Positions 14,801 through 63,448 of a stretch of 64,000 nt of DNA are shown piece after piece. Numbering within the stretch: position 1 is the stretch's first letter; every line of letters begins with the position of its first letter. The DNA is from Spongilla lacustris (taxonomy: Eukaryota; Porifera; Demospongiae; Spongillida; Spongillidae). A model generated the notes under the pieces. That model saw only the letters and a program-made list of their open reading frames with translations. It had not been told where the DNA came from and did not search any database. The position numbers were made by a program, and so were the translations under genes. The stretch is from positions 9,716,309 to 9,780,308 of the forward strand of contig OX442417.1 of the NCBI GenBank assembly GCA_949361645.1. The letters run 5' to 3'.

Positions 14801-17800
14801 TCAGAGAGAATATTTTTTATATCTTGTATACTAAATTTTATATCAAGTGGTTCTTTTGCTGATCTTTGTCATTATATCTTTTGTACGACAATGACTGCAC
14901 ATTTCATGAATTGTTATGCACAATAATGTATTATGATAAATGATGTATAATGTTGGAATGGCTCATGTACACTGACATGCTTGCTTAGTGCTCCATCACT
15001 GTGATGTTTTTATTTTGCAGTAGTCTACAGCTATTTTGTTCAGTTTAATGAGCAGGCTCAATATATGAAAGACAATGCACCCAAGACAATTGCACTAATA
15101 CATGTACATGTAAGTGAGAGATGGCATAAGATAACAAACCTTCATTATGACTTTCCACCAGGACAGGCACTGGATTGGTTGGTAGAGATTGAGGTGGAGC
15201 TGTGGAGATAAAGAATGTGCTACAGGTGGACATAAGACATATTCCAGCCTATCTTAGCATGAACACAATGTTCTTGTATTTTAATCAATGCTTAGTATAT
15301 ATACATGTACAGCTATCAAACAAATGTGCTGCAGAGCATGAGCAAAGGTCACATTTCTTTCAAACTCTATTCAAGTGTCGGCGTCACGAATTACAGACGC
15401 TGATGCTGATGCAACATCACATTTTACACTGCCCGGCCTAGCTTAAGTGATCTAGCATCCCCCCAGGGCCTGCCCACCCTGAACTGAACTACCATGATAA
15501 CCCATCAGATAGCAAGAACTTCTATATAATAAGCATCACAAAAGTGCAGAGTATCTAATCATATGGTTCATTACATTGTTTTATAAACAAACGAGAGTTA
15601 CACTGTAGGTCATAAGGGATACCTCCCTATGAGAGGTAGGTCATAAGGGATGCCTCCCTATCAGAGGTAGGTCATAAGGGATGCCTCCCTATGAGAGGTA
15701 GGTCATATGGGATGCCTCCCCTATGAGAGGTAGGTCATAAGGGCTCCCTGTGAGGGGTAGGTCATTAGGGATGCCTCCCTGCAATGGGTAGGTCATAAGG
15801 GATGCCTCACTATGAGAGGTAGATCATAAGGGATGCCTCCCTATGAGAGATAGGTCATACGGGATGCCGAGCCCTATGACGTCATAAGGGATGCCTCCCT
15901 ATCAGAGGTAGGTCATAAGGGATGCCTCCCTATCAGAGATATGTCATAAGGGATGCCTCCCTATCAGAGGTAGGTCATAAGGGATGCCCCTCTATCAGAG
16001 GTAGGTCATAAGGGATGCCTCCCTATGAGAGATAGGTCATACGGGATGCCGAGCCCTATGACGTCATAAGGGATGCCTCCCTATCAGAGGTAGGTCATAA
16101 GGGATGCCTCCCTATCAGAGATATGTCATAAGGGATGCCTCCCTATCAGAGGTAGGTCATAAGGGATGCCCCTCTATCAGAGGTAGGTCATAAGGGATGC
16201 CTCCTTGTAAGGGGTAGGTCATAAAGGATGCCTCCCTACGAGAGGTAGGTCATAAGGGATGCCTCCCTATGAGAGGTGGGTCATAAGGGATACCTCCCTA
16301 TCAGAGGTAGGTCATAAGGGATGTCTTCCTATCAGAGATAGGTCATAAGGGATGCCTCTCTATCAGAGGTAGGTCATAAAGGATGCCTCCCTACGAGAGG
16401 TAGGTCATAATGGATGCCTCCCTATGAGAGGTGGGTCATAAGAGATACCTCCCTATCAGAGGTAGGTCATAAGGGATGCCTTCCAATCAGAGATAGGTCA
16501 TAAGGGATGCCTCCCTATCAGTCGTAATATGGTCATAAGGGATGCTTCCCTATGAGGGGTAGGTCATAAGGGATGCCTCCCTATGAGGGGTAGGTCATAA
16601 GAGATGCCTCCCTATGAGGGTAGGTCATAAAGGATGCCTCCCTATGAGAGGTGGGTCATAAGGGATACCTCCCTATCAGAGGTAGGTCATAAGGGATGCC
16701 TTCCTATCAGAGGTAAGTCATAAGGGATGCCTCCCTATCAGAGATAGGTCATAAGAGGTGCCTCCCTATGAGAGGTAGATCATAAGGGATGCTCCCCTAT
16801 CAGAGGTAGGTCATAAGGGATGCCACCTTATGAGATGTAGATACCTCTCTATGAAAGGTAGGTCATAAGGGATGCCTCCCTATCAGCGGTAGGTCATAAG
16901 GGATGCCTCCCTATGAGAGGTAGGTCATAAGGGATGCCTCCCTATAAGAGGTAGGTCATAAGGGATGCTCCCCTATCAGAGGTAGGTCATAAGGGATGCC
17001 TCCCTATCAGCAGTAGGTCATAAGGGATGCCTTCCTATGAGAGGTGGGTCATAAGGGATGCCTCCCTATTAGAGGTAGGTCATAAGGGATGCCTCCCTAT
17101 CAGAGATATGTCATAAGGGATGCCTCCTTATCAGAGGTAGGTCATAAGGGATGCCTCCCTATGAGAGGTAGGTCATATGGGATGCCTCTCTATGAGAGGT
17201 AGGTCATAAGGGCTCCCTGTGAGGGGTAGGTCATTAGGGATGCCTCCCTGCAATGGGTAGGTCATAAGGGATGCCTCACTATGAGAGGTAGATCATAAGG
17301 GATGCCTCCCTATCAGAGGTAGGTCATAAGGGATGCCTCCCTATGAGAGATAGGTCATACGGGATGCCGAGCCCTATGACGTCATAAGGGATGCCTCCCT
17401 ATCAGCGGTAGGTCATAACGGACGCCTCCCTATCTGAGGTAGGTCATAAGGGATGCCTTCCTATGAGAGGTGGGTCATAAGGGATGCCTCCCTATCAGCA
17501 GTAGGTCATAAGGGATGCCTTCCTATGAGAGGTGGGTCATAAGGGATGCCTCCCTATCAGAGGTAGGTCATAAGGGATGCCTCCCTATCAGAGATATGTC
17601 ATAAGGGATGCCTCCCTATCAGAGGTAGGTCATAAGGGATGCCTCTCTATCAGAGGTAGGTCATAAGGGATGCCTCCTTGTAAGGGGTAGGTCATAAAGG
17701 ATGCCTCCCTACGAGAGGTAGGTCATAAGGGATGCCTCCCTATGAGAGGTGGGTCATAAGGGATACCTCCCTATCAGAGGTAGGTCATAAGGGATGTCTT

Positions 17801-19666
17801 CCTATCAGAGATAGGTCATAAGGGATGCCTCTCTATCAGAGGTAGGTCATAAGGGATGCCTCTCTATGAGAGGTAGGTCATAAAGGATGCCTCCCTACGA
17901 GAGGTAGGTCATAATGGATGCCTCCCTATGAGAGGTGGGTCATAAGAGATACCTCCCTATCAGAGGTAGGTCATAAGGGATGCCTTCCAATCAGAGATAG
18001 GTCATAAGGGATGCCTCCCTATCAGTCGTAATATGGTCATAAGGGATGCTTCCCTATGAGGGGTAGGTCATAAGGGATGCCTCCCTATGAGGGGTAGGTC
18101 ATAAGGGATGCCTCCCTATGAGGGTAGGTCATAAAGGATGCCTCCCTATGAGAGGTGGGTCATAAGGGATACCTCCCTATCAGAGGTAGGTCATAAGGGA
18201 TGCCTTCCTATCAGAGGTATGTCATAAGGGATGCCTCCCTATGAGAGGTAGGTCATAAGGGATGCCTCCCTATGAGAGGTAGGTCATAAGGGATGCCTCC
18301 CTATGAGAGGTAGGTCATAAGGGATGCTCCCCCATCAGAGGTAGGTCATAAGGGATGCCACCTTATGAGATGTAGATACCTCTCTATGAGAGGTAGGTCA
18401 TAAGGGATGCCTCCCTATCAGCGGTAGGTCATAAGGGATGCCTCCCTATGAGAGGTAGGTCATAAGGGATGCCTCCTTATAAGAGGTAGGTCATAAGGGA
18501 TCAGAGGTAGGTCATAAGGGATGCCTCCCTATCAGAGGTAGGTCATAAGGGATGCCTCCCTGTCAAAGGTAGGTCATAAGGGATGCCTCCCTATGAGAGG
18601 TAGGTCATAAAAGATGCCTCCCTATGAGAGGTAGGTTATAAGGGATGCCTCTCTATGAGAGGTAGCTGGTCATAAGGGATGCCTCCCTATTGAGTGCAAA
18701 CATGTACGCTATCAATAGTTCAGATACTATTAGCAGTCAAACTTACGTTGGCATATTGGGCAATAGGTAGTTCTTATTTCTTCTGCCAATACTGATTTGC
18801 CAATTGACTTGAGGGCATCAATGAGCTTCTTCCAGGAGCATGATACATCTGACTCCAACCATAACTGTACTAAATCATATCTGCATTCTGCCACCTGCCC
18901 TCGGTTATTAACATCAATCTCTTTTATCTTTGGAGCACTGATATCCAATTGGACTCCTAGTGACTTCCATTCCACCACATCTTTTAAAGCATTCAGCACG
19001 TTTTTATGTGTGAAAGTTGGATCTACAGAAAATTGAAAAAGACTCACTCTGAAACTAACAGATAAATCTACATGTACTTACATGTATACCATTGGTACAT
19101 GTATGTTTTCACACCAATTACACCAATCATTACAAATCAAATATCTGTAGCACATGTAGAGGTCATCTTACGGTCTTACCTTCACCTAGAGGTCCGGGGT
19201 TCACCTCTACATCTCCGGATAATAATATTAGTAGCTGCCGTAGCCACACCATGGATATTATCAAAGTTAGTACATTTACAACCTTTCCAGCTGCTCCGCT
19301 CATGTGACCAGGACAGTGATATGGTTCATACGTTTGCTGCGAGGGGAGGCAAACACTGATCAAATATATCAGTTGGCTAAATCTACGCACTTGAACACAC
19401 ACCTCATTTAGCCCGTGTGGTGTATCAACTAGTTCAACATTGACGTTCAACCACTTTTCATTGTTCTCAAAGCACAAAGATATTCTGACGATTACGTATT
19501 TGAGTTTCTCGACGTAAGTACTTCTATCGGATACCTTGCAGACATCTTTTCCTCTCCACTTTCGCTTCACGTTGACTGGACTATGCTTCTCGTCACCACA
19601 GCTAACGTTTCTACGGCTAACAAACGTCCCGATCCTTGCTCTGTACGTAGCTAGGTCGACTCCCAT
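5827..19666 (-). CDS. NLR immune receptor gene: 2A leader - Death - NACHT - LRR
   Basis: Exons read on the minus strand join without a frame break: 19666-19180, 19022-18747, 15199-15140, 13083-13030, 11706-11662, 7739-6137, 6086-6003, then possibly 5896-5827. All introns up to the NACHT exon are phase 1; the later ones are phase 2. Every boundary has GT and AG. The product order is leader with 2A motif, Death domain, Pro/Ser linker, NACHT ATPase and an LRR-like start. NLRs of this kind are cytosolic sensors that oligomerise through NACHT and signal through Death; sponges and other invertebrates have large families. Which ligand it senses cannot be told. The LRR part looks very short, so the gene is either truncated or continues in exons I missed. 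Exon predictions come from consensus and phase only. Confidence 0.75.
6003..6086 (-). CDS. NLR exon: 84-nt LRR-like exon
   Basis: The exon is flanked by ATATTTCAG and GTAAGT and is exactly 84 nt (28 codons), phase 2 to phase 2, the usual size of one leucine-rich repeat exon. It encodes IIRDDLHDADKLLALKRF and so on, following CQLATEGLDIITQNL at the end of the NACHT exon. Only this one repeat exon is seen. Confidence 0.6.
6137..7739 (-). CDS. NLR exon: NACHT ATPase domain
   Basis: A 1603-nt exon (phase 1 to phase 2) coding about 534 residues. It opens after TTTTTGTAG and closes at AAT|GTAAGT. Walker A is GRPGCGKTT (about 7450-7476) and Walker B is DICFIFDGLDEY about 75 residues later. Downstream are the helical and winged-helix type regions of STAND ATPases (FITSRP sensor, FPHLTNQEFLAAYHMS). 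The block HLTNQEFLAAYH is typical of NLR NACHT-associated helices. Both catalytic motifs are intact, so ATP binding and oligomerisation are plausible. The frame is also open upstream to 7821, but the acceptor and phase place the exon start at 7739. Confidence 0.9.
8068..9712. repeat. Pair of diverged 90-bp direct repeats
   Basis: 8068-8160 and 9620-9712 share GATAGGTCCTTTTC, then CTACAACAGCT, then AAGCTTGAAAA, then GCTAATGTTA-like words in the same order. They are likely two old copies of one repeat; no ends could be set. Confidence 0.5.
10308..10905. mobile_element. hAT-like MITE remnants, two partial copies
   Basis: GGTGGATCCAGGATTTTGGG at about 10311 matches the CAGTGGCGGATCCAGGA type end. 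A block with GGGGGTGTGCCTC, then CATAACTACC, then CATCACC recurs at about 10800-10905 as GGGGGCGTGTATC, then GATAACTACC, then CATCACC. Both copies are eroded. Confidence 0.4.
11157..11202. mobile_element. 46-bp palindromic micro-insertion with 8-bp direct repeats
   Basis: The sequence between two copies of GTTCTTCC (11149-11156 and 11203-11210) is a nearly perfect palindrome: ATAGATATTGTACAGAATAA against its complement. An 8-bp duplication around a palindrome is what a tiny hAT-type MITE would leave. Confidence 0.55.
11662..11706 (-). CDS. NLR linker exon, 45 nt
   Basis: CTCCACAG|CT...GAAG|GTATGT, phase 1 to phase 1. It encodes PPQSIPTNPVPAQE. It is a near copy of the 60-nt exon at 15140, and flanking intron sequence is also shared, so the two arose by segment duplication. 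Low-complexity linker between the Death and NACHT domains. Confidence 0.65.
11707..13029. other. NLR intron, nothing recognised
   Basis: AT-rich, with scattered TACATG words. No exon or RNA gene was seen. Confidence 0.4.
13030..13083 (-). CDS. NLR linker exon, 54 nt
   Basis: CTATTTCTATTAG|AC...CCAG|GTAAAC, phase 1 to phase 1. It encodes SPLITSSNSSAARIPVP, a Ser/Pro linker. It differs in sequence from the two Pro-rich exons around it. Confidence 0.6.
13084..15139. other. NLR intron, mostly plain sequence
   Basis: GT-rich microsatellite at about 13906-14000 and a truncated MITE at about 14650-14795. Some plus-strand frames of 60-108 codons (13571-14318) lack domains and splice context and are not called. 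Confidence 0.4.
14650..14795. mobile_element. Truncated copy of the MITE seen at 54.95 kb
   Basis: A palindrome ATAATTATTCCTATATTTAG...and its complement is followed by CCCTTGTTCCCTTCCTTTTT, then ACACCACCATTGCCTTCAAA and TCCTATATACCAC. The same order and words form the right arm of 54953-55197. The left outer arm is missing here. Confidence 0.6.
15140..15199 (-). CDS. NLR linker exon, 60 nt
   Basis: TTATCTCCACAG|CT...GAAG|GTTTGT, phase 1 to phase 1. It encodes PPQSLPTNPVPVLVESHNE. The Pro-rich linker follows the Death domain. It is paralogous to the exon at 11662. Confidence 0.65.
15600..18690. repeat. 31-bp minisatellite, about 100 copies, in an NLR intron
   Basis: The unit is AGAGGTAGGTCATAAGGGAT plus GCCTCCCTATG. 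Units vary by substitutions, short deletions and a variant with GACGTCATAAGG. CATAAGGGA and TCCCTATG inside each unit are near-inverted, so each unit can form a small hairpin. Marker variants recur about 1.47-1.53 kb apart: GAGCCCTATGACG at 15869, 16051 and 17369; GTCGTAATATGG at 16521 and 18025; GGGCTCCCTG at 15741 and 17210. The array is therefore largely a tandem duplication of a 1.5-kb block. It lies between the Death exon and the first linker exon. Confidence 0.95.
18747..19022 (-). CDS. NLR exon: Death domain
   Basis: A 276-nt exon, phase 1 to phase 1, bounded by TTTTCTGTAG and GCCAAC|GTAAGT. It encodes PTFTHKNVLNALKDV then EWKSLGVQLDISAPKIKEID, VAECRYDLVQLWLES and SWKKLIDALKSIGKSVLAEE. 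The W..LG..L.I...KI, then EC....L..WL, then W..LI.AL..I....LA pattern is the six-helix Death fold. After the intron join the protein reads ...NPGPLGE-DPTFTHK. It should recruit Death-containing adaptors. Confidence 0.85.
19180..19666 (-). CDS. NLR first coding exon: leader with 2A skipping motif
   Basis: The frame opens at an ATG in strong context (AAGATGG, 19666) and encodes MGVDLATYRARIGTF... It ends with a hydrophobic stretch and LLILLSGDVEVNPGP, then LGE and a consensus donor GAAG|GTAAGA at 19180. The Pro after the skip site is residue 159 from the first Met. A second Met at 19303 (weak context) would give a 38-residue signal-like leader ending in the same motif. A 66-nt stop-free stretch at about 19345-19410 has a GT donor and a CCCCTCGCAG acceptor and could be a retained or optional intron that keeps the frame. 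Either way the NLR body would be released starting with Pro. Transcription start not seen. Confidence 0.7.
19190..19216 (-). other. 2A ribosome-skipping motif GDVEVNPGP
   Basis: Nine codons match the 2A core D(V/I)ExNPG|P exactly. They are preceded by the leucine-rich LLILLS stretch usual for active 2A sequences. In 2A the ribosome fails to join Gly and Pro, giving two proteins from one frame. The motif sits on the Death-NACHT gene and there is no reverse transcriptase downstream, so it belongs to the NLR and not to a LINE. Confidence 0.85.
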
Positions 19667-26519: not shown

Positions 26520-29385
26520 ATTAATAATTCAACAGCGAGTTCAACCTCACCACAGTCACCAGGGCACACCGAGCTTTCAGTGCCGTGTTGTACTGTAAGT
26601 GCAGCAGCTCCAGCGTCAAGTGTACATCCTGCATATGCGTCAGGCTTAAGAGACCCTGCACAAGCTGTGAACCAAGAAAACACGATATCTGTTCAACTTC
26701 ACACCTTGCAGGGCGGAAAGGCGGATGCATCGAGTCCTCGGCAAAGCCGCCTCCCGCGATGTCCCAGCCCTCCTCCTCGCTGCCAGAGCCACCTTCCTCA
26801 TCACAACAGTGCTCAATCTTCAACATCAACACCTCCTGTAACGTCTTGATCGTCTTCCATGCCACCACAATCACCCACTTCCTCACCGCAAATGCACACT
26901 TCCCTACCGCGGACATCCCCACCTGAGCCTCCCTTTACATCGACGCAGACGTTTACTGCCTTCTTTACTACAGCAGCTGCCTCTAATGCCACAGCCATCA
27001 CAACTGCAACCTCTGCCATCACAACGGCAACCTAGTCCACCACAATCCCTTGGTCCCCCTTCCACGTCGAGATCGTGCCACCGCCCAAACCGCTCGTTTA
27101 GAAAGCAATGTCCTGTACCTGGATGCCCAGAGCGAATAGCCCCAACTACATGTACATTGTATGTGGCCATCTCATATGACTATGCATGCCCAAGGTTTAT
27201 TTCTGGGAGATGTTCTTTCTATGTAGTTGACAGAACAAGATTTATTTATTTGTCTGGGTTGCTTACAATTGGTTGTGAATTCTTAAGTGGCCACTCATTC
27301 CAGACACTGTATTTCCCCTTCTTCATCTCCAGGAGACCATGAATCCAACAATTGATTCAACTACTTTACACTGAGGTCTATCTTGACTGAAAACTCAGAC
27401 AAGGCCTGGCTGAAACTTCTTATGTTACCCAAGTGTGTGCTCTTTAAAGCGTAAAGGTAGACATCTAAAACCCACAAAGGTATCTACTCTCAGATCTCTG
27501 GTCCTAAAATGAGTTGGGAATCCTTTGGAATCGGGCTAAGGAAAAAGCCATGGCATTCCTAATCGGTATGACTCGGATCCAAAGAGAGCCATGGAGTATG
27601 CTGTAACACTAGCAAGGCTTGGTATGTACATTGTACATGTATGGGAAAACATGTCGCACTCTTCTCTCTGATGGTGTAGCCCCCAACAATGACTCAACAT
27701 GGCAAATGATCAAAGACTAGCACCCAAGTTGCCCACCCCCTCCTATCCCAGATTTGTCAACCTGCACACCTCTTTCCCTTGGCTTCAATTTTGACATAGC
27801 TTCCATCTTGCTCTCTTTCCCGAGGGGTACAGCAGCGGGACCATCTGGCCTTAGAATCCAATATCTCATTGATATCATCAACATCCCTCTGCCTATTTCT
27901 ATCAGTGCTTCCCTAAGAAGCATTGTCGACCTTTTAGCTTCAGGAAAAGTCCCAAAGAAAGTGTCGCAATTTCTAGGTGGAGCCAACCTGACGGCCTTAA
28001 ATAAATTCAAACCCAACTGCCCTGCAGACATACATGTACATGTAAGGCCCATTGCAGTAGGGGAAACCGTTAAAAGACTAACTGGAAAGTGCCTTTGCTC
28101 CCTTGTCAAAGAATAGCATGAGACTACTTCCAACCACTTCAACTTAGGGTCGCTTGTTCTGCAGGGTCTGAAAGTGCGAGATCTTCCGTCGGACCAACAC
28201 TGCAATGTTCTCTACTTCAATGAAGGTTTCCCATGCCCCACACTTGGACATTCTTGGTGCTCCCATTGCGGATTACCTGCATTGTGCTAACTTCATTTCT
28301 GCAAAGCGCAACGAGGCAGTGAAGTTGTTGTCCAAAATTAAAGACATTGCAGCTGTTGACCCTGAGGTAGCTTTTAATATTCTCCACATGTGTGTAGCCT
28401 TTTGCAAGCTGGTGCATTTTGCAAGGAGTACGCCCCCAAGCCTAGCCTTTGACCCTTTGACAGCCTTTGATGCCGAAGTCAGAGAATGTTTTGTCTTCTC
28501 CTTTGTACTGGATCTAACTGACTCTTCTTGGCAGCAGGCTCAACTGAGTCTGAAGTATGGTGGGCTTGGTCTACGTTCTGTTGCACTCCACTCTAGTGCA
28601 GCCTACATGTACATTGTATATTGCCTCAGTTTGTGCCACTGGTTGTGCTATAGCGGGTAATCACCACCTTACTCGTGCTATTGACACCTTCAGTACCCTA
28701 GTCTTTCCACAAGATACAGTGTCACACTTGACATCACCTGTTCACCAGAAAAAACTTTCTAGTTGTATTGATCTCAAATGCTTTAGGTCTCTATTGGATG
28801 CTTCCTCTGTAGCCAATAAAGTTTGCCTTCATTCTGTATCGGTGCCCCATGCTTCTTATTGGCTTACTGTGGTACCTACAATGGAGTTAGGTTTACATCT
28901 GGACCCAAGTGAGTTTTGTGTAGCAATTCGGTGGTGGTTAAGTGTGGACATCTCTAGAGGGCTCTCATGTCCTCTTTGCACTGACATAGCTTTGGACCCA
29001 CTTGGTCACCATGCAGCTACATGTACATGTACATGTAGGCGAGGGGGTGATGTGGTTCTCCGCCATAACCATCTGCGGGATGCTTTTGTCGAGCTTTGCC
29101 ATCAAGCACATTTAAGGGTAAAGGTGAGGAAGGCAGTGGTCTTACACCTGACATGTCTCACAACCGACCAGCCGATGTCTTAGTGCAAAATTGGTTGAGA
29201 CATGTGGTAACTGGGGGAAGGAGGCGGTCAACACATTTGCGCTACTGGCCCGCCGAATAGCCATGCATTCAGGGTATGCGAGGAGCAAGGTCACCCATGA
29301 CCTATACAGCAAGATGAACCTCACCTTGACAAGGTCCATTGCTCAAGCCATCCTAGTTATGGGTCTTGGTGTGTGAACTTTAGCT
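26520..29385 (+). pseudogene. Broken R2-like (RLE-type) non-LTR retrotransposon
   Basis: Same family as the element at 48.2-51.4 kb but in pieces. From 5' to 3' there is a Cys-rich CXC-like stretch (CKCSSSSVKCTSCICVRLKR), a Ser/Pro-rich part and a C2H2 start (CPVPGCPERIAP). Then come the pre-RT block (SGLRIQYLID, GANLTALNK, RPIAVGE), the thumb-like part (DILGAPIADY, QQAQLSLKYGGLGLRS), the zinc knuckle (CPLCTDIALDPLGHHAATC) and an RPADVLVQNW motif at about 29166-29195. The catalytic RT core, including the GDPLG and YLDD motifs, is deleted between about 28116 and 28150. Five insertions of TACATG type (27149, 27629, 28033, 28606, 29022) break or lengthen the frame relative to the 48-kb copy. Confidence 0.8.
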
Positions 29386-44896: not shown

Positions 44897-47800
44897 GTAC
44901 ATGTACGTCCAGTATGAAGTGTATTTGGATTTACATTCTTCCTGCAATGTGATGCAGGAGGCCTATAATCCCAAAGTCTACACTGCACCCAGAGGATCAC
45001 CCTCTAGTACTCCACCTGGGATGAAACCTCAGCCTGGCCCGTGGAATGCACCCCCACAGCAACAGGTACGTACATGTGTATTAAGCCCCTCATGTACCTG
45101 GCACATTCCACCTCATACACGATAAGTGTATGGAATTAGGTACTTTGCACGGCAATCATTTAATCCTGCAATTTTTACGTGTACATGTGCATGTATATAT
45201 GCACTTGTGCTCATGTAGTCATTTCTACATGTACCTCAAGTGTTACTGCCTTTAGTTTGATTGTTACTTTTTATTTGCCATCACTATCCATCGAAGGCAC
45301 TTGTGAATTACATGTACATGTACAAACGTGTATAGTATACTTCTTAATTAAAATCAGTAGCTTATTTTGTGTGCGCTTTAATGTGTACATATAGTTTTAG
45401 TGGCTACATTGTATTTGCATACATGGTCATGTACACGTAGGCTAATTGATGGTTAAAGTCCTGAATAAAGGTATATACTGTACATGTACATGTACATGTA
45501 TCATTGGCTCCTTGAAGCCTATTATTGGGCCCTCACAGTCATGTGTACTAAACAGCATTTTGCCTCACTTGCATGTATGTCCACCTTCACATACACATGT
45601 ACTGCAGCCTTCCACCCTCATCCCTAAGGCCACCAGATACTATGTGTAATGTGCAACTCTTCATACACACTGTACCATGTACATGTACATGTGCATGTAC
45701 ATGTACATGGTCAGGTGTGTACGTTTACGTTTTTGTATTTATACTATATTAGGGTCAGATTATTGTATGTTTTGTATCACGGTGAAACACACAAATTCTA
45801 TGACACACTTTGAGGCTTCCTGTCTATATTATCTTGTACATGTACATGTACGAGTACATGTACGAATATACAGTGCCGGCTCGCAAGAGTGAGAAGTCAC
45901 ACCTCGCAACAGTGAAAAATAAGGCACATTCATCTTGGAGTTAGGAAAACTGTTTGTGTTCATAGCGCAACCATACCGCTTTCATCAGTAGAATTCATTT
46001 GGTGATGGTCGGTCTAGATAGATCGATATCGATACATGAAAGCGGTATGGTTGCGTAATAAACACGAACAGTTTTCCTAACTCCATGATGGATACATGTA
46101 TGCCTTATTTTTCGCTCTTGCAAATTGGCACTGTGCATAATAATTCAAAGCTACATAATATTGTAATGAGTGCCAGTTGGAAAGCCACTTAGAGTTAAAG
46201 ACACATTTTCCTGTCTGAAGTGGCGCATTGGAAAGACAGTATTCAATGGCTAATTTAGTGCATCGCCTAGACTGTTGGTTTTTAAGAGGATTCATAGGAT
46301 TTAGCGTGGCACACGTCACATGCTCAATGAATTTATCAAATTCATAATTCATCTCTGGCCAACAATCTCTACAGCTTTGGCCGTATACACATGTATATAC
46401 ATGTACATTGTGTATGTACAGTGTATGTGCATGTACACATGCTGTAGAATCGCTACGGCCCTGATGTACATATACATATACATGTAGGTGTACGTATTCA
46501 TGTATCTATTTGCATATGTACATGTATGTGTACATGTGCATGTATATCATATACATGTACATGTACATGTGCATTTGATATGTTGTTAGCAGTTTTATAA
46601 ATTTACAAGTTGTGATCAGTTGCTCCACTTGATATTGTGTTCAAGCAGCTGCCTTTGAATGTAAATATATGTACATGTACCATCCGATATCAGATTGCAT
46701 TGATCACTATTTCACTAGCTGGCTAAAATAAAATAACTCATTGGTGTGTGCATGTACAGAGTGTATCAGGTGTGTACTGTATGTTTATTTCTTATTAGAG
46801 AAGGCAAGCTAAAGAAAAGCAGACCCATAGCAGGGAGGTAGCAGCTAGGTCACGCTCATCACAGCTACATGTACCTGCAGTGACATCCAATACATGTGTG
46901 TTGTGCATGCATTTGCTGTCTCAAAGTGGTCCTTAATTTGATGCTGCTCACCAGCCACAAATAGGCAGACATTGGGCTCTCCATCAAGTGTGTCTACAAA
47001 CCTTAGGAAAGAGGTATTACATGTGTACTGTATACGGTATACATCCACCTGTATGTGTATTGTTGTAACATGCACATTTGTATATACATTTGTATATACA
47101 TGTACATGTAGTGTGATATTCATGGCGAGTTAAATACTATTATTATGTACATGTTCATGTAGGAATGCGTATACATGTATATGTACATGTATGTGCATTA
47201 TCCTGTACTTCGGGCGGCGGAAGGTATTTTATAGTGGGGGGGTAAAACGAGGGGGGGGGGGGGGGGGTGCTGTCCACGTTCGCTTTATCACTTTCATGCA
47301 GCTGTTAATTAAATTCATTACATAATTTCATACTCAAGGTAAAAGTTGGGGGGGGGGGGGAGGGGTGTTAATATCCCCCCCCGGTTCCGCCACCGCTGTA
47401 CTTTGTGTTGCATGTTAGATTAAGAACTTGTTTCTGAATTTTAGGTACATGTACATACATGTACAAAACATTTGACTGTACAATGTAGTACATGTGATGC
47501 AGCTCACATTCCCATGCATGCTTGCACATGGAAATCGTATATACATGTACAATGAGATTGTGATCAGTGTCTTGGTTTCAGTGCATGTACATCATGTACA
47601 TGTGTATGAACAGCATTGATGAGTTGGCTTGAATGTCTATACTTGTTCAGTGTAAACCATTGCTTTAAGAAATATTGTTCAATGTACATTTGTGCTTGTC
47701 AAGTTTTTTAATACATGTATTTATATTTCGTACATGTACAACATGTAGTGCAGATCGTCACATCGCAGTGGCAATTCGTTTGGTCACACAGTTGGAGTGA

Positions 47801-50800
47801 ATAAACACCAAAGCACGTCAACTGTTCAAGTGAGTTGCAATATTGGTATGCGATTTGCAGTTCAGTTATGCGTTCATGTATTTGATTGATGCCAGCATGT
47901 CAGAAAGTTAAAGTCTTGAGTGACATTACATATAGTGTACATCTACATCTACATGTACATCATATTTAGTGTGTACTGCACAAGTATCAAGTCATAGTCA
48001 TCTTCTTAGTTGGCTTTTGGACTAAGCTGTACATACATTGTATAATTAAACAGTAGGCTGGGGCAGTAACAAATTACATTTGAACGTGGCTGTAGAAAGA
48101 GATTACATGTAGCCCAATAAGTTTTAATTATGATTTTTAACTTTTAGACTTTCACTTCCACTTCAATTATACATGTACATGTATATAGTATTCTACATGA
48201 CCACTTGTGCAAGAAGTCTTTGTTTTATCATTAAAATCATAATAACGGCTATTAATAGTTAAACCATTGGTATATACATAGATAATACAAGGAAGACAAT
48301 AAACACATTATATGTGAAAGTTAGGTCTATGGCGGAGGAGCTATCCTGGAAAGGACAGCTGTGGCATTGGCACAGACCAGGTTGAGATTCAGCCGACCAT
48401 AGATCTCGTTGAGTATGATGGATTTTGGCCGGCATGTGGAGGTAGCAAGTCTGGAGGCTACTGAGGAGATGATGGCAGTGGCTTCCTTTCCCCAAGCCCC
48501 ATAGGTTTCCACTACCATAGGGACACAAACCCACCCTAGTTCTGAACATTTAGGGTCATTTGCTTTGTGCTTTCTAGCCTCGGTGGCCTGGGCAGCAGCT
48601 GTGGCCGACACTCCCGCTTCCAACAAAGTGACAGGATTAAGCGGTGAGGTGATGGACACATCTAATGCTGCAGTTCTGCCCAAGAACCAGTTGGGAAGTA
48701 AGATGTTCGCTGGACGGGTCTTGCTGTGGTCTCTGGTAAGATTGTTGCCAACTTCCACCTTAACCCCTATGTGAGCCCGACGACAGGTCTCCACCAGGAT
48801 GTCCCTAATCCTATTATGGCGGGAGACCACATCACCACCATATTTGCAGGTAATTGCATGGTGTCCAAGGTGATCAAGTGCACTACCTGGGCACAGTGCA
48901 CATTGGGAGCCCTCCGAGGTGTCAAGTCCAAGCCACCATTTGATGGCAACCTGGAAAACTGGTGGATCCATGTGAAGCCCCAAGTTCTCAGAGGGCACAA
49001 CTGAAAGCCAGGATGCAGCATGGGGGGAAGAAACTGACAGAAGACGTGCCTTATCTGCTACAGATGATGAATTCAGTAGTGTGTTGAAAACATGATCATC
49101 CAACTTAGCAGAAAGGGATTTCTGGGAGACTGGTGAAGTGAGGAGAGACTCAACACTAATTGCATCTGCAGGTGAGACCAAGCTGTTGAAGATGTCTACT
49201 GCTTGAGACAGATGGTGAGATGACTGCAGACCAAAGCCAGATGAGCATAAGGAGGAGATAAAAGCTGCTGGTGAGTGGCGGGACAATGACCGAAACCCAA
49301 GGCCCCCTCTACTTGGGCTAAGCTGAGCTTGTTGCCAGGCTGTATCTGACACGTCTACTCCAATGCATCGACAGAAGGTCATTCGGATATCATCATCGAT
49401 AAGAGCAAAGACTTTAGATGTGAGTGTTGATGGAGTTGCCCTTGCCAGATGTAACAGTTTGCAAAAAGCCCCACAAAGACGAAGAAGGATTAATGCAACC
49501 TGTGGATCAACTATCCCAACCTCCTCAAGTTGTGACAATAGGATCTTAGCTTTGGTGTGTTTTTTGGAGATAAAGGAGGAACAAAATTCCTGGTCGCCAA
49601 TGGGAATCCCTAGAATCTCCATATTGGGCTTGTCAGATTTCTTCATGCATAATGGGAACATGTCAAGGCCATGTCGGCTGAACACCTCACATTTAGGCAG
49701 GTTGACAATAATACCTAGAGCAGGGCCTTCCTCCTGGAGCAAAGACAGAATCCTGCATAATGAAGACCTGGGGCCAGCCACAGCCCCATCATCCAAGTAC
49801 CAGGCATGGAATGGGATGTTAGAGCAGGCACTGTCTCTTGCGATTTTCATCACTAAAATGTTTAAAACAAGTGAAAATAGCAGGGGTCCGAGTGGATCTC
49901 CTTGTTGGACACCTGACTCTGATGTCAAGCAGCCTAAATGGTGCCAAAGAAGAGGATGCTGTCCATAGCACCAGCTGACCCAAGGGAGAAGTTCAGGGAA
50001 ATGCTTGGCACACTCTGACAGGATAGCTTGGCGAGAGACCAAATTAAACGCATTTGTCATGTCCACTTTCAAAACACCAAAGTCATTTTCAGACCAGTGC
50101 TGTTCTATACATGTTCTCAAGCCGTGAGCAATCCTTTCAGCACCACAAGGGAGGGCCACACCAAATTGATATGGCTCAAAAAATGATGCCATTTTGCTTC
50201 GAAGGGCAGCACAAAGGCATTTCCCTGTCAGACGCCGTAAGGCTTCCCCAACAGCAATGGGGCGGATGTCTCCTGGTGTGGGCTTGTTTAGGGCAGTTAG
50301 GTTACCTCCTGCGAGGAAGATGGCTACATCCAGTGGAGCACTACCCGAGATCAGCAGATTGATGACAGCACGGAGAGTGTGGAGGAGTGGAGTCTGCAAA
50401 GGAACCTCAGCAGCATCAATCAGGTGCTGTATTCGGAGGCCAGAGGGTCCAGCTGCCGTTAACTTGGGAAAGGATCTGAGAATGTTCATAAGGCTAAGAT
50501 CAGGTGGAAATTTAAAATCTGTGTTTGATGGGAGGGGAATTGCTGGGCAAGCACTACTGGGGTGCTTACTGATGAGTAGCTTCCAAGTGTCATCATTATT
50601 GGGTGCAACTCCAGAAGATATGAGGACTTGGCAGGCCTTTCCGTAGAGACCGTCCTGAGCCAATGAAATGGCAGAAGCCACTTTTCTCCTGCCTGGATCT
50701 TCCTTAGGGTGAGGTGAGCTTGATTTGGATGTAGCACGCCTTACTGCCAGATTCCACAAATCTCCAAGATGCCCACCTGACCACATATCACATAGAACCT

Positions 50801-53800
50801 CCAATGGTATAGGCTTGTTGTGACGACCTCTTCTTCTGGAGCAAGGCAGTACACACTTAGGGAGCATGAAGAGCTTCACCCACGAGCCAATAGAATTCTC
50901 AGTAATCACAGCTCTGAGTGCAGCTGATAGCACACGGGCAAAGGCTGGCTTGGCTTTGTTTGGGATGAATCGAATTGTAGGACATTTGAGGTTGCAGATG
51001 TCCCTGAGGGAAGGCAAATCATCACCTGAAGCACTAGACAGAGGTGTAGCCACTGAAGGTTCAGGTGAGGGAGGGGGTTTTAAACACTTCTTGATATGTG
51101 AGGACTTGTGGGAGATGGCAACAAGGCTAGAGCAGTGGTGGCAGATGTATAGGTTCTGATTGATAAGCCATGTGTCAGGGACTGCACCACAGAATGTACC
51201 TCTGACGTGACCTTCCATGTGAATGCGCCACATGGATGGTGCAATGAGTGCCTGGCAACCCTGGACAATGCAGGGCTTCTTATGGTTGTCGCATTGAGGA
51301 TGTACGGAGGAGTCACTGGAATTTGTTGAAAATAGAGAGGAGGATGCTGTGGGCTGCAGCTGTGATAATAATTATTATACATGTGTACATTTACATGTCT
51401 CTTCATTTTTTATTGATGGCAAATACAAATGTTGTACATGTACATGTATGTTTAGTGTTTTGAATGTACCCTTCCACCCCTCAACACAGCGTACACCTCG
51501 CAATGTTGCCAAAGAGAAGCACATGGAAAGTAAGATACAGGCGGCTCATGACACAAAAGATATTACCATAGCCAAGCTCAGAGCTGATGTAAAAGAGAAA
51601 CAAAATGAACTACATATGGTGAAAGCTTTAATGTCTAGAGAGATGGATCAGGAACGGAACAGGATTCACTGCGAGGCAGAAAAGGAGAAGAGCACTGAAG
51701 TGAACAGAGTCAAAGCTGAAATGACAAAAGAGAAGACAAAGGAGATGGATAAGCTGAAGGCAAAGCTTTTGAAGGAATATGAAGTAAAAGTGAAGAGATT
51801 AAAAGCTGAAATGATTAAATCGAAGGAGAGTGAATTAGAGAGGCTCACTGCTGAAATGGTTAAACAGAAAGAAAAAGAATTAGAGGTCATTAAAGCTGAA
51901 GTGTTTAAGAAAAAAGAAAAAGATAAAGGAATGGAGAGAAAGGCTAGGCTTTTACGGGGGAAAGAAAGGGAATGCAGCATAGTCAGAGCTGAAGTGGTAG
52001 ACAAAAAAAGAGAAATGGAGGCATTCAAGGATGAATTGATGAAAGAGAAAGGAAAGGAAGTGAGCAGACTGAGGGCTGAGATGTTGAAGGTGAAGGATGC
52101 AGAAATATGCAAAGTAAAGACTGAATTGACTGCTGGACATGAGAAAGAAATAAAGCAGCTCAGAATGATGATGACAAAAGAGAAAGAGAAGGAAATTAAT
52201 GAGTTGAGGTTGGAGTTGTTGAGGGAGAAGGAGAGAGAAATTGACGAAATAAAGGCTCAGATGGGGAACCATCTGATACATGGAAATGAGAGGCTGAGGG
52301 CTGAGCTGTTGAAGGTAAAGGATGCAGAAATATGCAAAGTAAGGACTGAATTGACTGCTGAACATGAGAAAGAAATCAAACAGCTCAGAGCAAGAATGAT
52401 AAAAGAAAAAGAGAAGGAAATTAATGAGTTGTTGAGGGAAAAAGACGGAGAAATTGACAAAACAAACCATGTGATGAGTGAGATACTGAGGGTAGAGCTG
52501 TTGAAAAGTGGAGAAAATGAGATTGGCAAGGTCAAGGCTGAATTGAGTATAGAGAAAGAGAGAGAAATGGAAATGTTTAAAGCTGAAGTAATGAAATGGA
52601 ATGAGATTGAAATTAGCAGACTGAGGGCTAAGCTGTTGAAGGAAAAGGATGCTGAAATTTCCAAAGTAAAGACTGAATTGTCTCTTGAACACGAGAAAGA
52701 AATAAAACAGCTCAAAGTAAAAGAAAAACAGGAGAAAGACAGAGAAATTGATGAAATAAAGGCTCAGATGGATATTAAAAGAGAGAGAGAAATTGATAGA
52801 TTGAAGACTGAGAGCCGTGTGATAAATGAAAATCAAAAGGCTGAGCTGTTGAGAGAGAAGGAGAGAGAAATAGAACAGTTGAGGGTGCAGATGATGAAAG
52901 GAAAGGATGTGGAAAAAAGAACAAGTACATGTACATTTAGTGACAGGCTCAAGGAGACTGAGGTACATGTAAGCCGTGGTAGCCCTGGCAAGATCGGAGG
53001 GGCAGAGGGCATAAATCTGGGGGGAGGGCTTTGTATATCCATTAGACAATCCACATGTAACTAGTTCAATTGTGAGCGATTATTAAGCAGTACAACTGCG
53101 AGCCAACGTAAGGAAACATTGTAATATTGTACGTGTACATGTACATGTAAATCTACAGTAAAAATTACCCTATTGGATACATGAAGACCATACATGTACT
53201 TGATTGACATTTATTTACTGCATCTTGCAATTGTGGGAACAACATTCATGTGCCGAAGCATTTATATAGGGGTGGCACAATCGTTCCACTGAACTTGTCC
53301 ATAGCCTAGGGATAAAACTTGTAGTTTTTTTGTGTTTATGCTTTTACGTTGTACATGTACATGTACATGTACATGTAAATGTTGTACATGATGATCTGCC
53401 ATAATGTTATACATTTTCATGTACAAGATAAATATTCTTATCATGTACATGTACATGTAGTACTTGTACATGTACATGTAACTAAGATATGGGCATTGCA
53501 GCCATTTTATTACGCTAATTTTTACAATTCGCTATATGCATGAGCACTACACTTTGCATGTACATGTGTGCATACATTGATTAATAAAAATTGTCTTTGT
53601 TAGCCTTCCACTACAGTGCCCTGTAACAGGAATGCTGATACACTTTGGATTACCACTGGTATAAGGTTAGTACATGTAATTGGTATGATATGAGGACGAG
53701 GACAAGGGTAGTACATGTACATGTACAGTACACGTATGTATATCAGTGTATTGGTATCTTCACTTGCAGATCCAGTGTTGGGGCTTCCTCTGCTCCACGA

Positions 53801-56800
53801 GTGTGTGGGCTTTCTAACCTTGGCAACACATGTTACATGAATGCTGCGCTTCAGTGTCTGTACAGTACCACTGCATTTAGAAATGCATTTGTGAAAGGTG
53901 ATTTGGTTTTAATGTGGATGTCTAATATCTGTGGCACACCTGCATGTTATAATATCTAGTGAGGGCCAATGCCACTGCCATGCTCACCAGATGTGTTTTG
54001 CATTAACTATAGGCAGTTTATGATAGTGTATCGTTATTAAAAATGTGGGTGTTGATGTATGTACCGTTATGTTCACATGTTTACCGTAGCATAAAAGCAA
54101 TTCTTTGGATGAATTTTAGGAGTGCCGTGTGCATATTATAAATTAGATTTTGGTTCCTGTACTGTTTCATTGCATGCTGTTTCTTTCCAAAACAAGTCTA
54201 GTACATGTACATTGTACATCCCATCAAACATTCTTTACCCCCATCCAAAATCATTACTAATTGTACATGTACATTTACATGTTTAAATGGCAACATTGTG
54301 TTTGGTACATGTACATGTACATACACTAAATGTGTGTTTTTAAAATTTACGAACTCCTGCAATAAATCATTATCAAACCTACATGTACAGTACATGTGAT
54401 AAAACATAGCGTAATTCACAGTGCATGAATGAAGGTGCATAACTACATGTAGGTAATGTTACTATGATTCCTCAATTACATATACATGTACATGTAATTG
54501 CCAAGAATCTAATTTTATTGTTGTTTCTTACTGGATTTATGAAAGTGATTTGTCATTTGCAAGGGGAATTTGTGGCTGAACTAATGAACTTGTTGCAAGA
54601 AATGTCAAGTGGGAAGAAGGAAGCTGTGAAGCCACTTCGGCTTAAGGTTGGAACTACATGTACATGTACAATGTACATGTACATGCAAGTATTTGTTCTT
54701 ATGATCCTTGTACTCAAACATACATGTACCACAAATTAACTCCATTCATCACCCTCAAAATTACATATTCACACTCAGTGTCATCATCTGCCCATGACTC
54801 CATGTTCACTTGTTTGGTGTATACATATACATGTACATGTACAATGTACATGTATGTGTGTGTGTGTGTGTGTGTGCCAAGGAAGGTTTGCATTAGGATC
54901 ATCGATTCAATACAAGTAAATAAAATCATTCTCTACATGTGTATGAGAAAGTTGGTGGTACATGTATATAGGATTTGAAAGCAATAGTGGTGTAAAAAGG
55001 AAGGAAACAAGGGTCTAATTATAAGGAAGAACGAAATAGTCCTATATTTAGCACATGACTAATTTAACAAACCCTTCCTACTATGTGTGCTAAATATAGG
55101 ACTACAGGGTGTATTTCGTTTTTCCTTATTATTAGACCCTTGTTTCCTTCCTTTTTACACCACTATTGCATTCAAATCCTATATACATGTACCACCATAG
55201 AGAATGTTTTTTATTTACTTGTTTCATTGCTTTTTATTCATAACTGGATGCTTTCAAGTTAGGATAGATATAATCTACAAGTAAGTATATAATAATTAAT
55301 TTGTGGTGCAACAGACATTTAGTCATTTTAATCTATACCCACCGCTATGCAACAAAATGGCACTGTGATATCTGCTGCTGCAGTGATTTGGGGCAGGAGA
55401 CTGATATTAAAACTAGAAGCTATTCTTAATGATACATGTAGATTGGATGTCTGTGGATACACTTATAGATGTAATTTATCAAGGGAAAGAGACCAAATTT
55501 CAGCTTTGTTTCCCCAGTCCCTGACAAAGTGCTGCATGCTCAAGGACTAATAATAGCCTGGTGGGAAATAAGAAACACTGGTTACTATCTAAAGTATTAT
55601 TTACATTATTACATTATTTGCATTGTAACTCTTTACATTGTACATGCCCTAACTCTGTGGCCACATATAAAAATCCAAGATCACAATAGTATGGTAAATC
55701 CGTAAACAATGCTGTACATGTAAGTATTGAAAAGCATTTTTCTCATTTTTCTATACCCAAGTCTGCTTTTCTGATGATACAGTGAGGGAATTTCTTTATA
55801 TGTGTGGCCAGCACCTCTACAGCAATTGAGTGTTCTGCAAATCAATTTGATCTCAGTTTTTTTTTAAATCTCAACTGGAGGATGCAAATGTAGGCTTGTA
55901 TATACTTGCCATGGAAAATGTACATGTACATGTATGTACCTGTTATTGATATAATGGCTTCCATAATCAACAGCTTGAACAGGCTGTGCTTGGCATTGGT
56001 GGTGAATGCTTGATATGCCCCTTAATCACTATATAGTTTTTCATTTAATTCACTCAACAAGTACTTTCCGTTTCCTGCAAAAATGCCCCTGTTGTAGTGA
56101 CTGTGCATTGGATAGACTATCACTAATGGAATAACTGCTCCTGTTGGAGTGACTGTGCCACTGTTAGAATGTGTGTGCCCCTGTTAGAATGACTGCATGC
56201 CTATTAGAATGACTGCGCCCCTTTTGGAGTGTCTGAGCCCCTGTTGTAGTGTCTGTGTTGTGCATGTGTACCACTATCTCAGAATTCGAAGAAGCCAGCT
56301 TGTGTAAACTATCCATCAGTTACCAACCCAGGGACAACCCACCTGTGTTTGTCTTCACTGGTCAGCATTTTTACATGTGATTGAGAGTTTATTTTCAAAA
56401 ACTAAAAGTATTTTCTATAATGGTACATGTAGTGCATGCATATGGCATTTTATCAAATACCTGTTATGTTGATAATCATGACATTCATAGCACGCCAATG
56501 TGTTGGGTTCACAAGTACGTGTAGCTACGCTTTTAATATTAGTGAAGCTACATGTATGCATTAATACAGACATCTGACATATCAGCTATCACATCTGATC
56601 TCTAGCCACATAAACCAGTACCAATCAGTCAGGGTACCCATCACATGGCGTAGTTAGGAGCAGGTAGCTACGTACTACATACCTATGGTTGACTATATTG
56701 TGTTGAGCCTTAATCGTAACTCTTGTCCATCGAGTATAGCCTTATGTCATTGTCTTTTAGCAGTCCGTTGGACCTTTTCTGGTACTGCTCGATACTTTGC

Positions 56801-60029: not shown

Positions 60030-61432
60030 GTAAGTACAGTTACAATGTACTTGTATATGAAGGGGAAATTATTAATATACAATTGTGCTTTCAGGTGCTC
60101 AAACACCTTCAGAAATTGCTGTACATGTACATGTACTGTACATGTACATGTACATGTACTGTACATGTACATGTACATGTACAGTATGTAGACGTACATG
60201 TAGTGAATGCATACATGTACATGTACGGTACATGTGTACTGAGTTGCAGAAATGTATGTGCGGTGATGCAAAAATGCAACAGAATATAGTATAGTACCAG
60301 TCAGAAAAAAGTTTCCCTATGTTCCACGTAGTTTAATTATCATGATGTAGAATCATAGTGTGAGACCGTAGCTACATGTACATTGTATACGTACAGTGTA
60401 GTGAAGTTCGTGTACAAATTGAACGTGTTCAGGTAGTAGAATTTGGCCGATTTGTCGCGCAAACACAAGTACATGTACCAGCAGCTTTGAAAGAATGACG
60501 TACATGTACATTGTACATTTCGCACCATGTAATCATGGTAATGCAGGCACGCGTTGTCTCTACATGTACGTGCTTAGCGTATCACCATACTCTACGGTCG
60601 GAAACTTTTTTCTGACTGGTACTGTATACATGTGCATGTACATGTACACTGTACAGTAGCTACAGTCACAGTGATTTGGATAAGGTTTTGCTTTTGACCA
60701 GACATAATAGTCAATACATGATCAGACATGGATAAATTTTGACCAAACACAGTTTAACTGCTAGAATCAAGGAATACAGTTTCAACATTTGTAACAAAAA
60801 CTACTCCGCTAAAAAGCTATCCCAGTCATCAATATTTACAGTGTACAATGTACATGTTGTTCCATGATACATGTAGTTGATACAAATTTGTTGACCCAGT
60901 AATACATGTAAAAGCTTTCAAGTGGTTATTAGCTGGTCTTCAAACTGTATGCACGATTTGCATTTCAAGGCAGCTACTACTTGTAGTTGGGAGTAGCTCG
61001 AAATTTGCGCAGTGTACGCAAAGGTTGGGCTATGCCCGAGGGGTCAACACGAGCTTACATGTATAGCCAGTACGGAATTTCTTAATTTCTGAAATTTCCC
61101 AGATTTCGGCCGGATTTCCCAGATTTCTGCCATATTTCCCAGATTTCTAATCTAAGTTTCTGCTTGATTTCTACCGGTAGTATTTTGTTTCTCCTGAACA
61201 TCTCTTTCCGAAGTCCCGAATATCTATGCATTCTGTTCTGTGCTAGGTGAGTGTCAAGGCTGTCAGGGCTGACAGCGAGTGAGCTATCAGCATTTCTAAA
61301 ATGAATGAACTTATAGCCGAACAACTGTCTTTTACCAGGTCCATGCTGACAGCATTGCATAAAGGAACACACATTGATCTCTATTAGTCTCCAGGCAGTG
61401 GTCCTACAATGTACATGTTGTACAGTGGTGCT
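60030..61432. other. USP intron or downstream, TACATG-rich
   Basis: Dense (TACATG)n palindromes at 60117-60240. A short palindromic block with TTTCCCAGATTTC repeats lies at about 61090-61150. No further USP exon was recognised. Confidence 0.4.
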
Positions 61433-62611
61433 CTTCGAAAGAGGGGAAAATGCAATAATGCGCATTTTTGATAATATCTCATGAATGGTATATAATTGTA
61501 TCATGTCAATTACATTTTTAGATTCAGCATCTATATGTACTTCTGAACGGAGTACATTGGTACATTCACTTTAATCGAATTAATTATGACTTGTAAAGAA
61601 AACAGTGCACCATAGTAAGTAACTGCTGGTCAGGTAGGATGTTCAAGGCTATAACTCCTCTATTCTTTGCAAATAACTACCAATTTTTTTTGTATGTACA
61701 CAATACAGGTGAGTACCTATGATGTTGTATTGAGCTCTTAATCCCACTTGCTGTGGAGATCGGTAGAAAAGTATCACTTTTTAGAAGGAGGTGGGGACTT
61801 TATATGAATTAGTTTGACGTACATGTACGGTTAAAGCTTTTTCTAAATGAGAGGTCTCTGGGGTATCAGTGTAATTTTTTCTAATTTTTTGGCAGCTTGC
61901 TATCAACATTATACAATCTATGAAATGTTAAAAAGCTTAACATTGAAAGCCATTTTTCATTTGTTTGTAGGATTTCTCTGTATATCATAGTAAAAGTGTA
62001 GCAAATAATCAGCGTTTGTACATATACTTACTCTATCAAGTGTTCTACATGTACATGTATAAATGCTTTAAAGTTATGTACAGTGCTTACAAACACAAAT
62101 ATCTTTACTACATGTTTACTATGATACAATGTATACAGAAAAATCCTAAAAACGGGTGAAAAGTGGCTTTCAATGTTAAGCTTTTTTAACATTTCATGGA
62201 TTGCTTAATGCTGATAGCAAGTTGCCAAAAAATTATTTGGATACTATAGGGACCTCTCATTTCGAAAAAGTTAATTTGAACCCATAAGTCCAAGCAACTT
62301 GTCTGAATTCATACGAAGACCCCGCCTCCATTTGAAAAGTGATACCTTCCTACCAATCTCCACAGCGTGTGAGGCTTAAGAGCTCAACACAACACTGTAT
62401 TACATACTCACCTGTATGGGGTGCTTAATTACATGTAACTACTGCAAATAATAGAGGAGTTATAGCCTTGAACAGGTTGACCAGCAGTTGTTTACTATGG
62501 TGCATTGTTTTGTTTACAAGTGATAATTAAATTAAAATGAATTTCTTCTGAGATATTATCAAAAATGTGCATTATTAATAATTTTTTCCCCTCTTTCTAT
62601 GAACACCACTG
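61433..62611. mobile_element. 1.18-kb Tc1/mariner-like foldback element
   Basis: The left end is CAGTGGTGCTCTTCGAAAG and the right end, inverted, CAGTGGTGTTCATAGAAAG. The arms of over 500 bp are inverted and about 85-90% alike. TA lies directly outside both ends (61431-61432 and 62612-62613), the target duplication of Tc1/mariner elements. No transposase, so non-autonomous. Confidence 0.8.
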
Positions 62612-63448
62612 TAGATCGCTACCATCCTAGATCTAGGACCACCGTATTACAGCTTAGAATATAAATTGTAATTTTATTATGGTCTCCAATCTTATTGGAA
62701 TAAACATTACATATAGCTAAGAAGAAAGCACTAAAACAATTTGTTTATTTTCTAATACATGTACAATGTATAACTGTAGCAGAATGAGTTTTTTGCAAAA
62801 ATTGGTGAAAAGTGACGAAAGATAATCGGTTTCTTGTAACTTCACATGTGCTCTATGTCTGTGGAACACATTTTAACATTAGTAAAGCACTGCCCTATCA
62901 CTGCACTCTGATTTATGCATAGATTATGCTTCAGACATTATATATGAATAGATAACGACTTTGGTTTGCTTGAAATCTATAAATGATCGCATTTACATGT
63001 ACACAAAGAACAAAATTAGCATACAGGAGAATTTTTATAATTGATCTAGCTAGACCCAATTATTTATGGTACTGCTACAGGTGTAGTGCTCTTTCCACAA
63101 ATCAAATGAAAATAGATATCTTGTCAATGCCACAGCCCCTTTGTAATGAGACATTAATGCTACTGCCTTGTGTACAACAATGTTATTCTGTGCATGTATG
63201 GCGGCAGTACTTAAGTATCTGCTGCACTATGCCACTTACTCCTACAACGTCTGCTCAACAGACATTAGTCTGGTTGTAATGGTCATTCTCCATTTTGTCC
63301 CTAAACATACATATACTTGTAACAAGATCATAATTCCATATTGAAGTAAATACCCCCCCCCTCCCCCCCCCCCCCCAGTTACAAACCTGTTCTCTTGTCG
63401 GCTCCTGATCACAGCTGAGGGTGCTTTAGCTTTCCTTGTAACTAGTAG
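62612..63448. other. Non-coding stretch
   Basis: AT-rich; C-rich run at about 63352-63377. No exon recognised. Confidence 0.35.

Follow-up and report, generated by a model that had tools for sequence, protein, structure and literature searches.

Short TA-targeted insertions with CATG fillings in the genome of Spongilla lacustris, most likely excision footprints of Tc1/mariner/pogo elements

The footprint left by excision of Tc1 in Caenorhabditis elegans is TACATGTA. The TACATG tracts of the genome studied here are like such footprints in that the TA is duplicated, CA and TG appear to be kept from element ends, and the context lies near CAYATATRTG, but they are unlike them in number, with approximately 200 000 tracts in one genome, in their stacks and mixed fillings, and in having G or A at position -1. 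Footprints of Tc1/mariner elements were given as 2–4 bp (PMC7913693), and the 5' cut in vivo was placed two or three bases within the element (PMC2642840). Passer elements duplicate a TA target and are reported to leave footprints of 0–4 bp, with inverted repeats mostly of <30 bp (PMC9976928). Stowaway and other grass mariner MITEs (PMC4423477, PMC1925063) are TA-flanked and non-autonomous, with marks left by excision. Most of 94 putative DNA-transposon excisions in rice involved a deletion or filler, whereas a uniform CATG dominates here. In a catfish paper (PMC5953449), ‘footprints’ refers to element copies rather than excision scars. No report of genome-scale accumulation of such scars was found in searches of an open-access library, outside of which most subscription papers lie.

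Our analysis shows the TACATG tracts to be short insertions at TA, most likely the excision footprints of Tc1/mariner/pogo elements, and most TACATGTA copies are likely scars of excised TA-targeting elements. We infer that excision was the source of the insertions, along the following route: an element with CA...TG ends would enter a TA and duplicate it, the transposase would later cut within the element, two or three bases from its ends, and sealing of the break by end joining would leave TA-CATG-TA (+6) or, after a 3+2 cut, TA-CANTG-TA (+7). Two bases per CA... or ...TG end give CATG and three plus two give CANTG, which agrees with the observed ranking of fillings. The initial annotation of this DNA had proposed that the tracts are excision scars, and this reading is supported: the three observations it had named as speaking against itself (insertions not tied to TA, a smooth spread of lengths, and a genome free of Tc1-like elements with CA/TG ends) all failed to appear, and both the flank preference and the mixed fillings add independent support.

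The window, meaning the whole stretch of 64 000 nucleotides that was analysed (G000:C3:9716309-9780308), belongs to a genome of 248.6 Mb in 51 contigs. Composition statistics were based on the window and 19 spots elsewhere, a 20th (contig C8) being too short. The window also contains an ORF at 42247-43587 (minus strand) for an aspartyl/asparaginyl beta-hydroxylase, whose top-ranked named relative, from Amphimedon queenslandica, is 55 % identical and points to a probable demosponge source; a NACHT-domain frame of 563 aa, NLR-like, at 6133-7824 (minus strand); and a tandem array of approximately 100 copies of a 31 bp unit (GTAGGTCATAAGGGATGCCTCCCTATGAGAG) at 15605-18690. The features of a broken retrotransposon copy and of its relative are as follows, the insertions having no strand.

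~27013..29355, plus strand: broken retrotransposon copy, a reverse-transcriptase relative; its extent is that of the tblastn protein match to the ORF at 48327-51371, so that its limits are match limits
48327..51371, minus strand: related retrotransposon ORF of 1014 aa with RVT_1 (Pfam PF00078, E 6.5e-16), the unbroken comparison used in the initial annotation
27149..27161: insertion of +13, CATGTACATTG plus duplicated TA; bare TA in 2/2 sisters
27629..27641: insertion of +13, CATTGTACATG plus duplicated TA; absent in 5/5 sisters
28033..28044: insertion of +12, CATGTACATG plus duplicated TA; bare in 5/5 sisters
28606..28618: insertion of +13, CATGTACATTG plus duplicated TA; bare in the 5/5 sisters covering the site, a sixth stopping short
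29018..29037: tract of three TACATG units, with +12 private; one TACATGTA unit already in 6/6 sisters

Sister copies were found by a genome-wide search, in which the best long DNA matches were 90–91 % identical; six sister stretches over ~28600-29060 and 12 short ones over the other three sites were fetched, picked from 55 and 30 further matches to two parts of the copy, respectively. Private insertions faced bare-TA sisters at four of the five sites, and in the sister on contig C20 the junction at 27629-27641 was one further base shorter. The coordinates and sequences of the five insertions had been given correctly in the initial annotation, and it was right on all five, each of which was private to the broken copy; the event at 29018 was the growth of an existing unit, from one to three, rather than an insertion at a bare TA. 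Protein alignment with the 1014 aa ORF revealed the breaks in the copy and bore out the HVHV and TCTC additions. One sister copy carried a 124 bp insertion (C20:1336653-1336775), which did not lie at a TA and was rejected as a CA...TG element, fitting none.

All five events in the broken copy were two-unit, compared with 8.4 % of tracts genome-wide and with one of nine CA...TG events in the filtered indel table described below (Fisher P=0.003, in a post hoc test). This would be expected if a palindromic unit of 10–11 bp (CATGTACATG, CATGTACATTG) were inserted at TA in one step, the doubles being primary and unstacked, and CATGTACATTG was indeed seen in identical orientation at 27149, 28606 and ~60500. 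We nevertheless consider such one-step insertion unlikely, as single-unit tracts outnumber two-unit tracts by approximately 14 to 1, and mixed unit pairs occur genome-wide in near-equal numbers in the two orders (1461, as 712+749 on the two strands, versus 1116, as 588+528), a strand-balanced pattern as for units added separately.

The initial impression that TACATG tracts are very common was confirmed by a large excess over chance in both the window and the genome. TACATG had 545 matches in the window against 74.6 in 100 shuffles, and TACATGTA occurred 224 449 times genome-wide (0.90 per kb), against a chance expectation of approximately 17 200 when the simulated rate was scaled to the genome; reversed-pattern controls for this genome-wide count and for the two-unit count given below were not clean, as the reversed word also occurs within multi-unit tracts. 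The density of TACATGTA was 3.0 per kb in the window and 0.83 per kb in the 19 outside spots, where there are approximately 71 TA per kb; by extrapolation, about 1.1 % of TA sites bear a tract. Density was uneven, ranging from 0 to 41 units per segment with a median of 4 (51 segments of ≤5 kb each). Dense zones with 30 to 41 CA...TG units per 5 kb segment were seen at window 45000-64000 and at L011:5000-10000, and may reflect age, gene density or local hot zones.

Tracts numbered approximately 203 188 genome-wide, of which approximately 186 105 (~91.6 %) were single-unit; multi-unit matches amounted to 21 261 for two units, 4178 for three (represented by an 18-mer count) and 658 for four. The occurrence of the longer, four-unit arrays and the growth from one unit to three at 29018 are what an ordinary microsatellite would produce, a TACATG hexanucleotide changing in length by slippage. 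This is quite an improbable account of the tracts as a whole, since a bare TA cannot gain CATG through slippage, and single-unit tracts as slippage products are already contradicted. The tracts were not mostly multi-unit arrays of one type varying by whole units; different unit types are mixed in both orders, and the flanks show a transposase-like preference.

Excision footprints, by comparison, agree with the content of the sites. Among the 256 TA-NNNN-TA words in 254 kb, CATG stood far above all others, with 570 tracts on both strands against 68 for the next word. When the 16 terminal dinucleotide pairs were compared over 247 950 bases after satellite masking, CA...TG was the top end pair with 0 bases between (331 vs 17.2 simulated), 1 base (70 vs 12.2), 3 bases (48 vs 17.8) and 4 bases (37 vs 17.0). 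With 2 bases between, it was found 44 times against 20.8 simulated, below the TC and TA pairs; with 5, CA was outside the top five; and with 6 it was top again, chiefly through two-unit tracts. The filling CAGGGTG/CACCCTG occurred 16 times in the masked sample. The duplicated TA was thus accompanied by fillings that match element terminal bases, as CATG, CANTG and CAGGGTG are enriched and resident elements begin with CAG. The word TA-TCGCGA-TA was also enriched (10 vs 0.1 expected), apparently from the TCGCGATA repeat family (L006:7635-8476).

The same picture emerged from alignments in which the motif was not preselected. A first all-against-all indel table was swamped by tandem and simple repeats, and a filtered table was used instead, which held 99 distinct indels of 3–22 bases from 321 kb. 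The insertions proved to be tied to TA, which was the commonest duplicated dinucleotide (17 of 99, followed by AT with 11), and nine of these 17 TA duplications had CA...TG fillings (CATG four times, and CAATG, CACATG, CATGTG, CAGGGTG and CATGTACATTG). Although indels overall spanned 3–22 bases, the CA...TG events took discrete sizes of 6, 7, 8, 9 and 13, with 12 added by the retrotransposon copy, rather than a smooth spread. Comparison of the arms of 34 inverted pairs, some of whose indels are the same events as in the filtered table, yielded CATTG and CACCCTG, and TACATG made up three of six six-base indels; the remaining indels were ordinary, save for a few CA...TG ones. A census of TA-flanked inverted pairs served as a source of examples only, as it counted internal fold-back TAs repeatedly.

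Fold-back elements and MITEs in the window allowed such insertions to be read arm against arm and copy against copy. They are listed here, again without strand.

45869..46133: fold-back ending in CAGTGCC...GGCACTG and bordered by TA at its left but TG at its right; ends read, one arm with a +6 CATG insertion
54953..55197: fold-back MITE-A copy with CATGTA (+6) in both arms, at 54961-54966 and ~55184-55189; empty in the 14.7 kb, L005 and L001 copies
55105..55113: insertion of +9, CAGGGTG plus TA; missing from the other arm
61421..62613: TA-flanked fold-back element with CAGTGGTG...CACCACTG ends (CAGTG type); ends read, same family at L006:784-1789
62127..62133: insertion of +7, CAATG plus TA, in the fold-back at 61421-62613; missing from the other arm and from L006

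Both kinds of alignment bore out the single +6 differences that had been noted among the MITEs, at 45.9, 14.8 and 55 kb. In the MITE-A copy at 54953-55197, the presence of the same +6 at mirrored TAs in both arms calls for either arm conversion or two hits, and the arms look as though one had copied the other. A further fold-back of approximately 1.5 kb, at L010:5154-6635, has nearly identical arms and is therefore probably young.

These alignments also bear upon the possibility that selection has retained TACATGTA, a very frequent palindrome, as a regulatory motif, with no insertion involved. We find this hardly credible, since TACATGTA appears as a private insertion, including in dead element copies, and the existence of empty sites already contradicts it.

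The target context beside the scars was examined at 196 isolated sites, of which 79 made up a strict set after flanks with TGTA, TACA, CATG or GTAC on either side had been dropped. The preference at positions -4 to -1 was approximately [CT]-A-C-[AG]; in the strict set, -2 favoured C alone, with T depleted, and -5 to -8 were near background. CANTG sites favoured T, not C, at -4. As a control, the flank frequencies of 1428 other TANNNNTA sites were within ~0.03 of background. The published Tc1 target consensus is CAYATATRTG (PMC9635669); the scar flanks match CAYA in part, well at -3 and -4, whereas -2 takes C but not the T that Y would allow, and -1 takes G as well as A. Of the trinucleotides ahead of TA at the sites, ACA was found 40 times against 11.5 expected and ATG 35 times against 23.1.

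Elements of the Tc1/mariner/pogo type with TA duplication are present in the genome, where a profile search gave at least 79 matches to PF13358 and at least 157 to PF03184 (DDE_1). The genome thus has elements that insert at TA, carry CA/TG ends and occur as near-identical copies, the candidate donors being a Tc1-like group and a pogo-like element with a DDE_1 domain, E1. Copies of the Tc1-like group (the L026 group) were 97.9–100 % alike, and comparison of copy with copy placed the left end at TA followed by CAGTAGAGG in nine of nine copies, with differing flanks; spacing was of the DD34E type, the final D and the E being separated by 34 residues when counted by eye. The right end was not reached within ~9 kb of the left end, where there is a 165 bp tandem array, and no inverted-repeat ends were found within 1.5 kb at eight DDE_3 loci. 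This Tc1-like element (L026, L028, L029, L031-L034, L036, L027, L040-L043) is unusually long, running for ~9 kb from its left end with no right end found, and its copies are 98–100 % identical where compared. In a second group the exact string matched two of five loci. Among the PF03184 matches listed, 11 shared one score and open frames of 552 aa, and five had frames of 567 aa.

E1 (C1:4431139-4434800) reads TA, CAGTAGCTGC...GCAGCTACTG, TA, with ends CAGTAG...CTACTG and inverted repeats of ~1 kb, and its end is 80 % identical over 69–70 bp to the left end of the fold-back at 45869-46133. Set against the Pogo/Passer type (PMC9976928), E1 has TA target duplication in common and a likeness in its Pfam DDE_1 domain, but its inverted repeats of ~1 kb compare with <30 bp in most Passer elements. 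Exact E1 ends numbered 18, of which 12 formed six pairs ~3.65 kb apart, in a pattern that itself required TA. The E1 flanks were unlike the scar flanks, with A at -3 in five of 17 distinct flanks. As its ends are few and its flanks lack the scar preference, E1 is not established as the source, and the small number of recent E1 copies beside that of the scars suggests that most scars are old or derive from other families, some now gone. An element of ~1.23 kb with both ends read was also seen in the C6 sister of the broken copy, between GGA-TA and TA-TCTC. Its ends are mutually inverted, the left beginning GTG... and lacking CA, the right being ...CACTG; the corresponding place reads GGATATCTC in two of six sisters and GGACATCTC or GAACATCTC, without TA, in four. 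It occupies a different TA from those of the scars in the broken copy.

Host repair, in which a TA-directed break of other origin is filled by a CATG palindrome with no transposon excision, would account for the fact that no element–scar pair was found, for scar flanks that are unmatched by E1 flanks and for the regional swings in density (from none to 41 units in 5 kb). It is very improbable in our judgement, because it demands an enzyme not yet known in a genome whose resident elements already have the required target and ends, and because the CAGTG and CATTG fillings match 3+2 cuts of the resident CAG and CAT ends.

With excision as the preferred source, repeated hits would be the main source of the two- and three-unit tracts. 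Neighbouring units numbered 79 against 26.9 expected from random hits at local density (a 2.9-fold excess, the maximum of 200 simulations being 39), which slippage in a microsatellite would also produce, and the re-hit rate per TA was 4.2 % against a baseline of 1.1 %. The probability of three or more units given two was 0.206, compared with 0.084 for two given one, and mixed pairs made up 10.8 % against 14.3 % expected, an expectation based on raw CATTG/CAATG counts from which chance was not subtracted. This array excess and the shortfall of mixed pairs, the latter again in keeping with a microsatellite, indicate that separate hits, which can account for most pairs, were joined by slippage or by bursts within one family. 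The earlier suggestion of stacking by re-insertion is thus supported in part: it fits the mixing of units for most pairs, but all five events in the broken copy are double, and the growth at 29018 started from an existing unit, as slippage could also bring about.

A scar sets CATG beside its own TAs, in agreement with the flank preference at three positions out of four, which would make scars somewhat favoured as next targets. We tentatively propose a feed-forward process, somewhat more apt to prove wrong than right, in which excision scars rebuild most of a half-site, draw the next insertion and so seed microsatellite-like TACATG arrays; it is modestly supported by the 1.5-fold excess of ATG ahead of TA.

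Taken together, if the excision reading is right, an apparent class of hexamer microsatellite would be a fossil count of DNA-transposon excisions, which are otherwise invisible once the element has gone, and excision would become measurable apart from insertion across a genome. It would also show how departed cut-and-paste elements made frameshifts and in-frame insertions, and would offer a testable route for the birth of microsatellites. Should the feed-forward process be true, the approximately 1.1 % of the genome's TA sites so converted would be the record of a long war with cut-and-paste elements.
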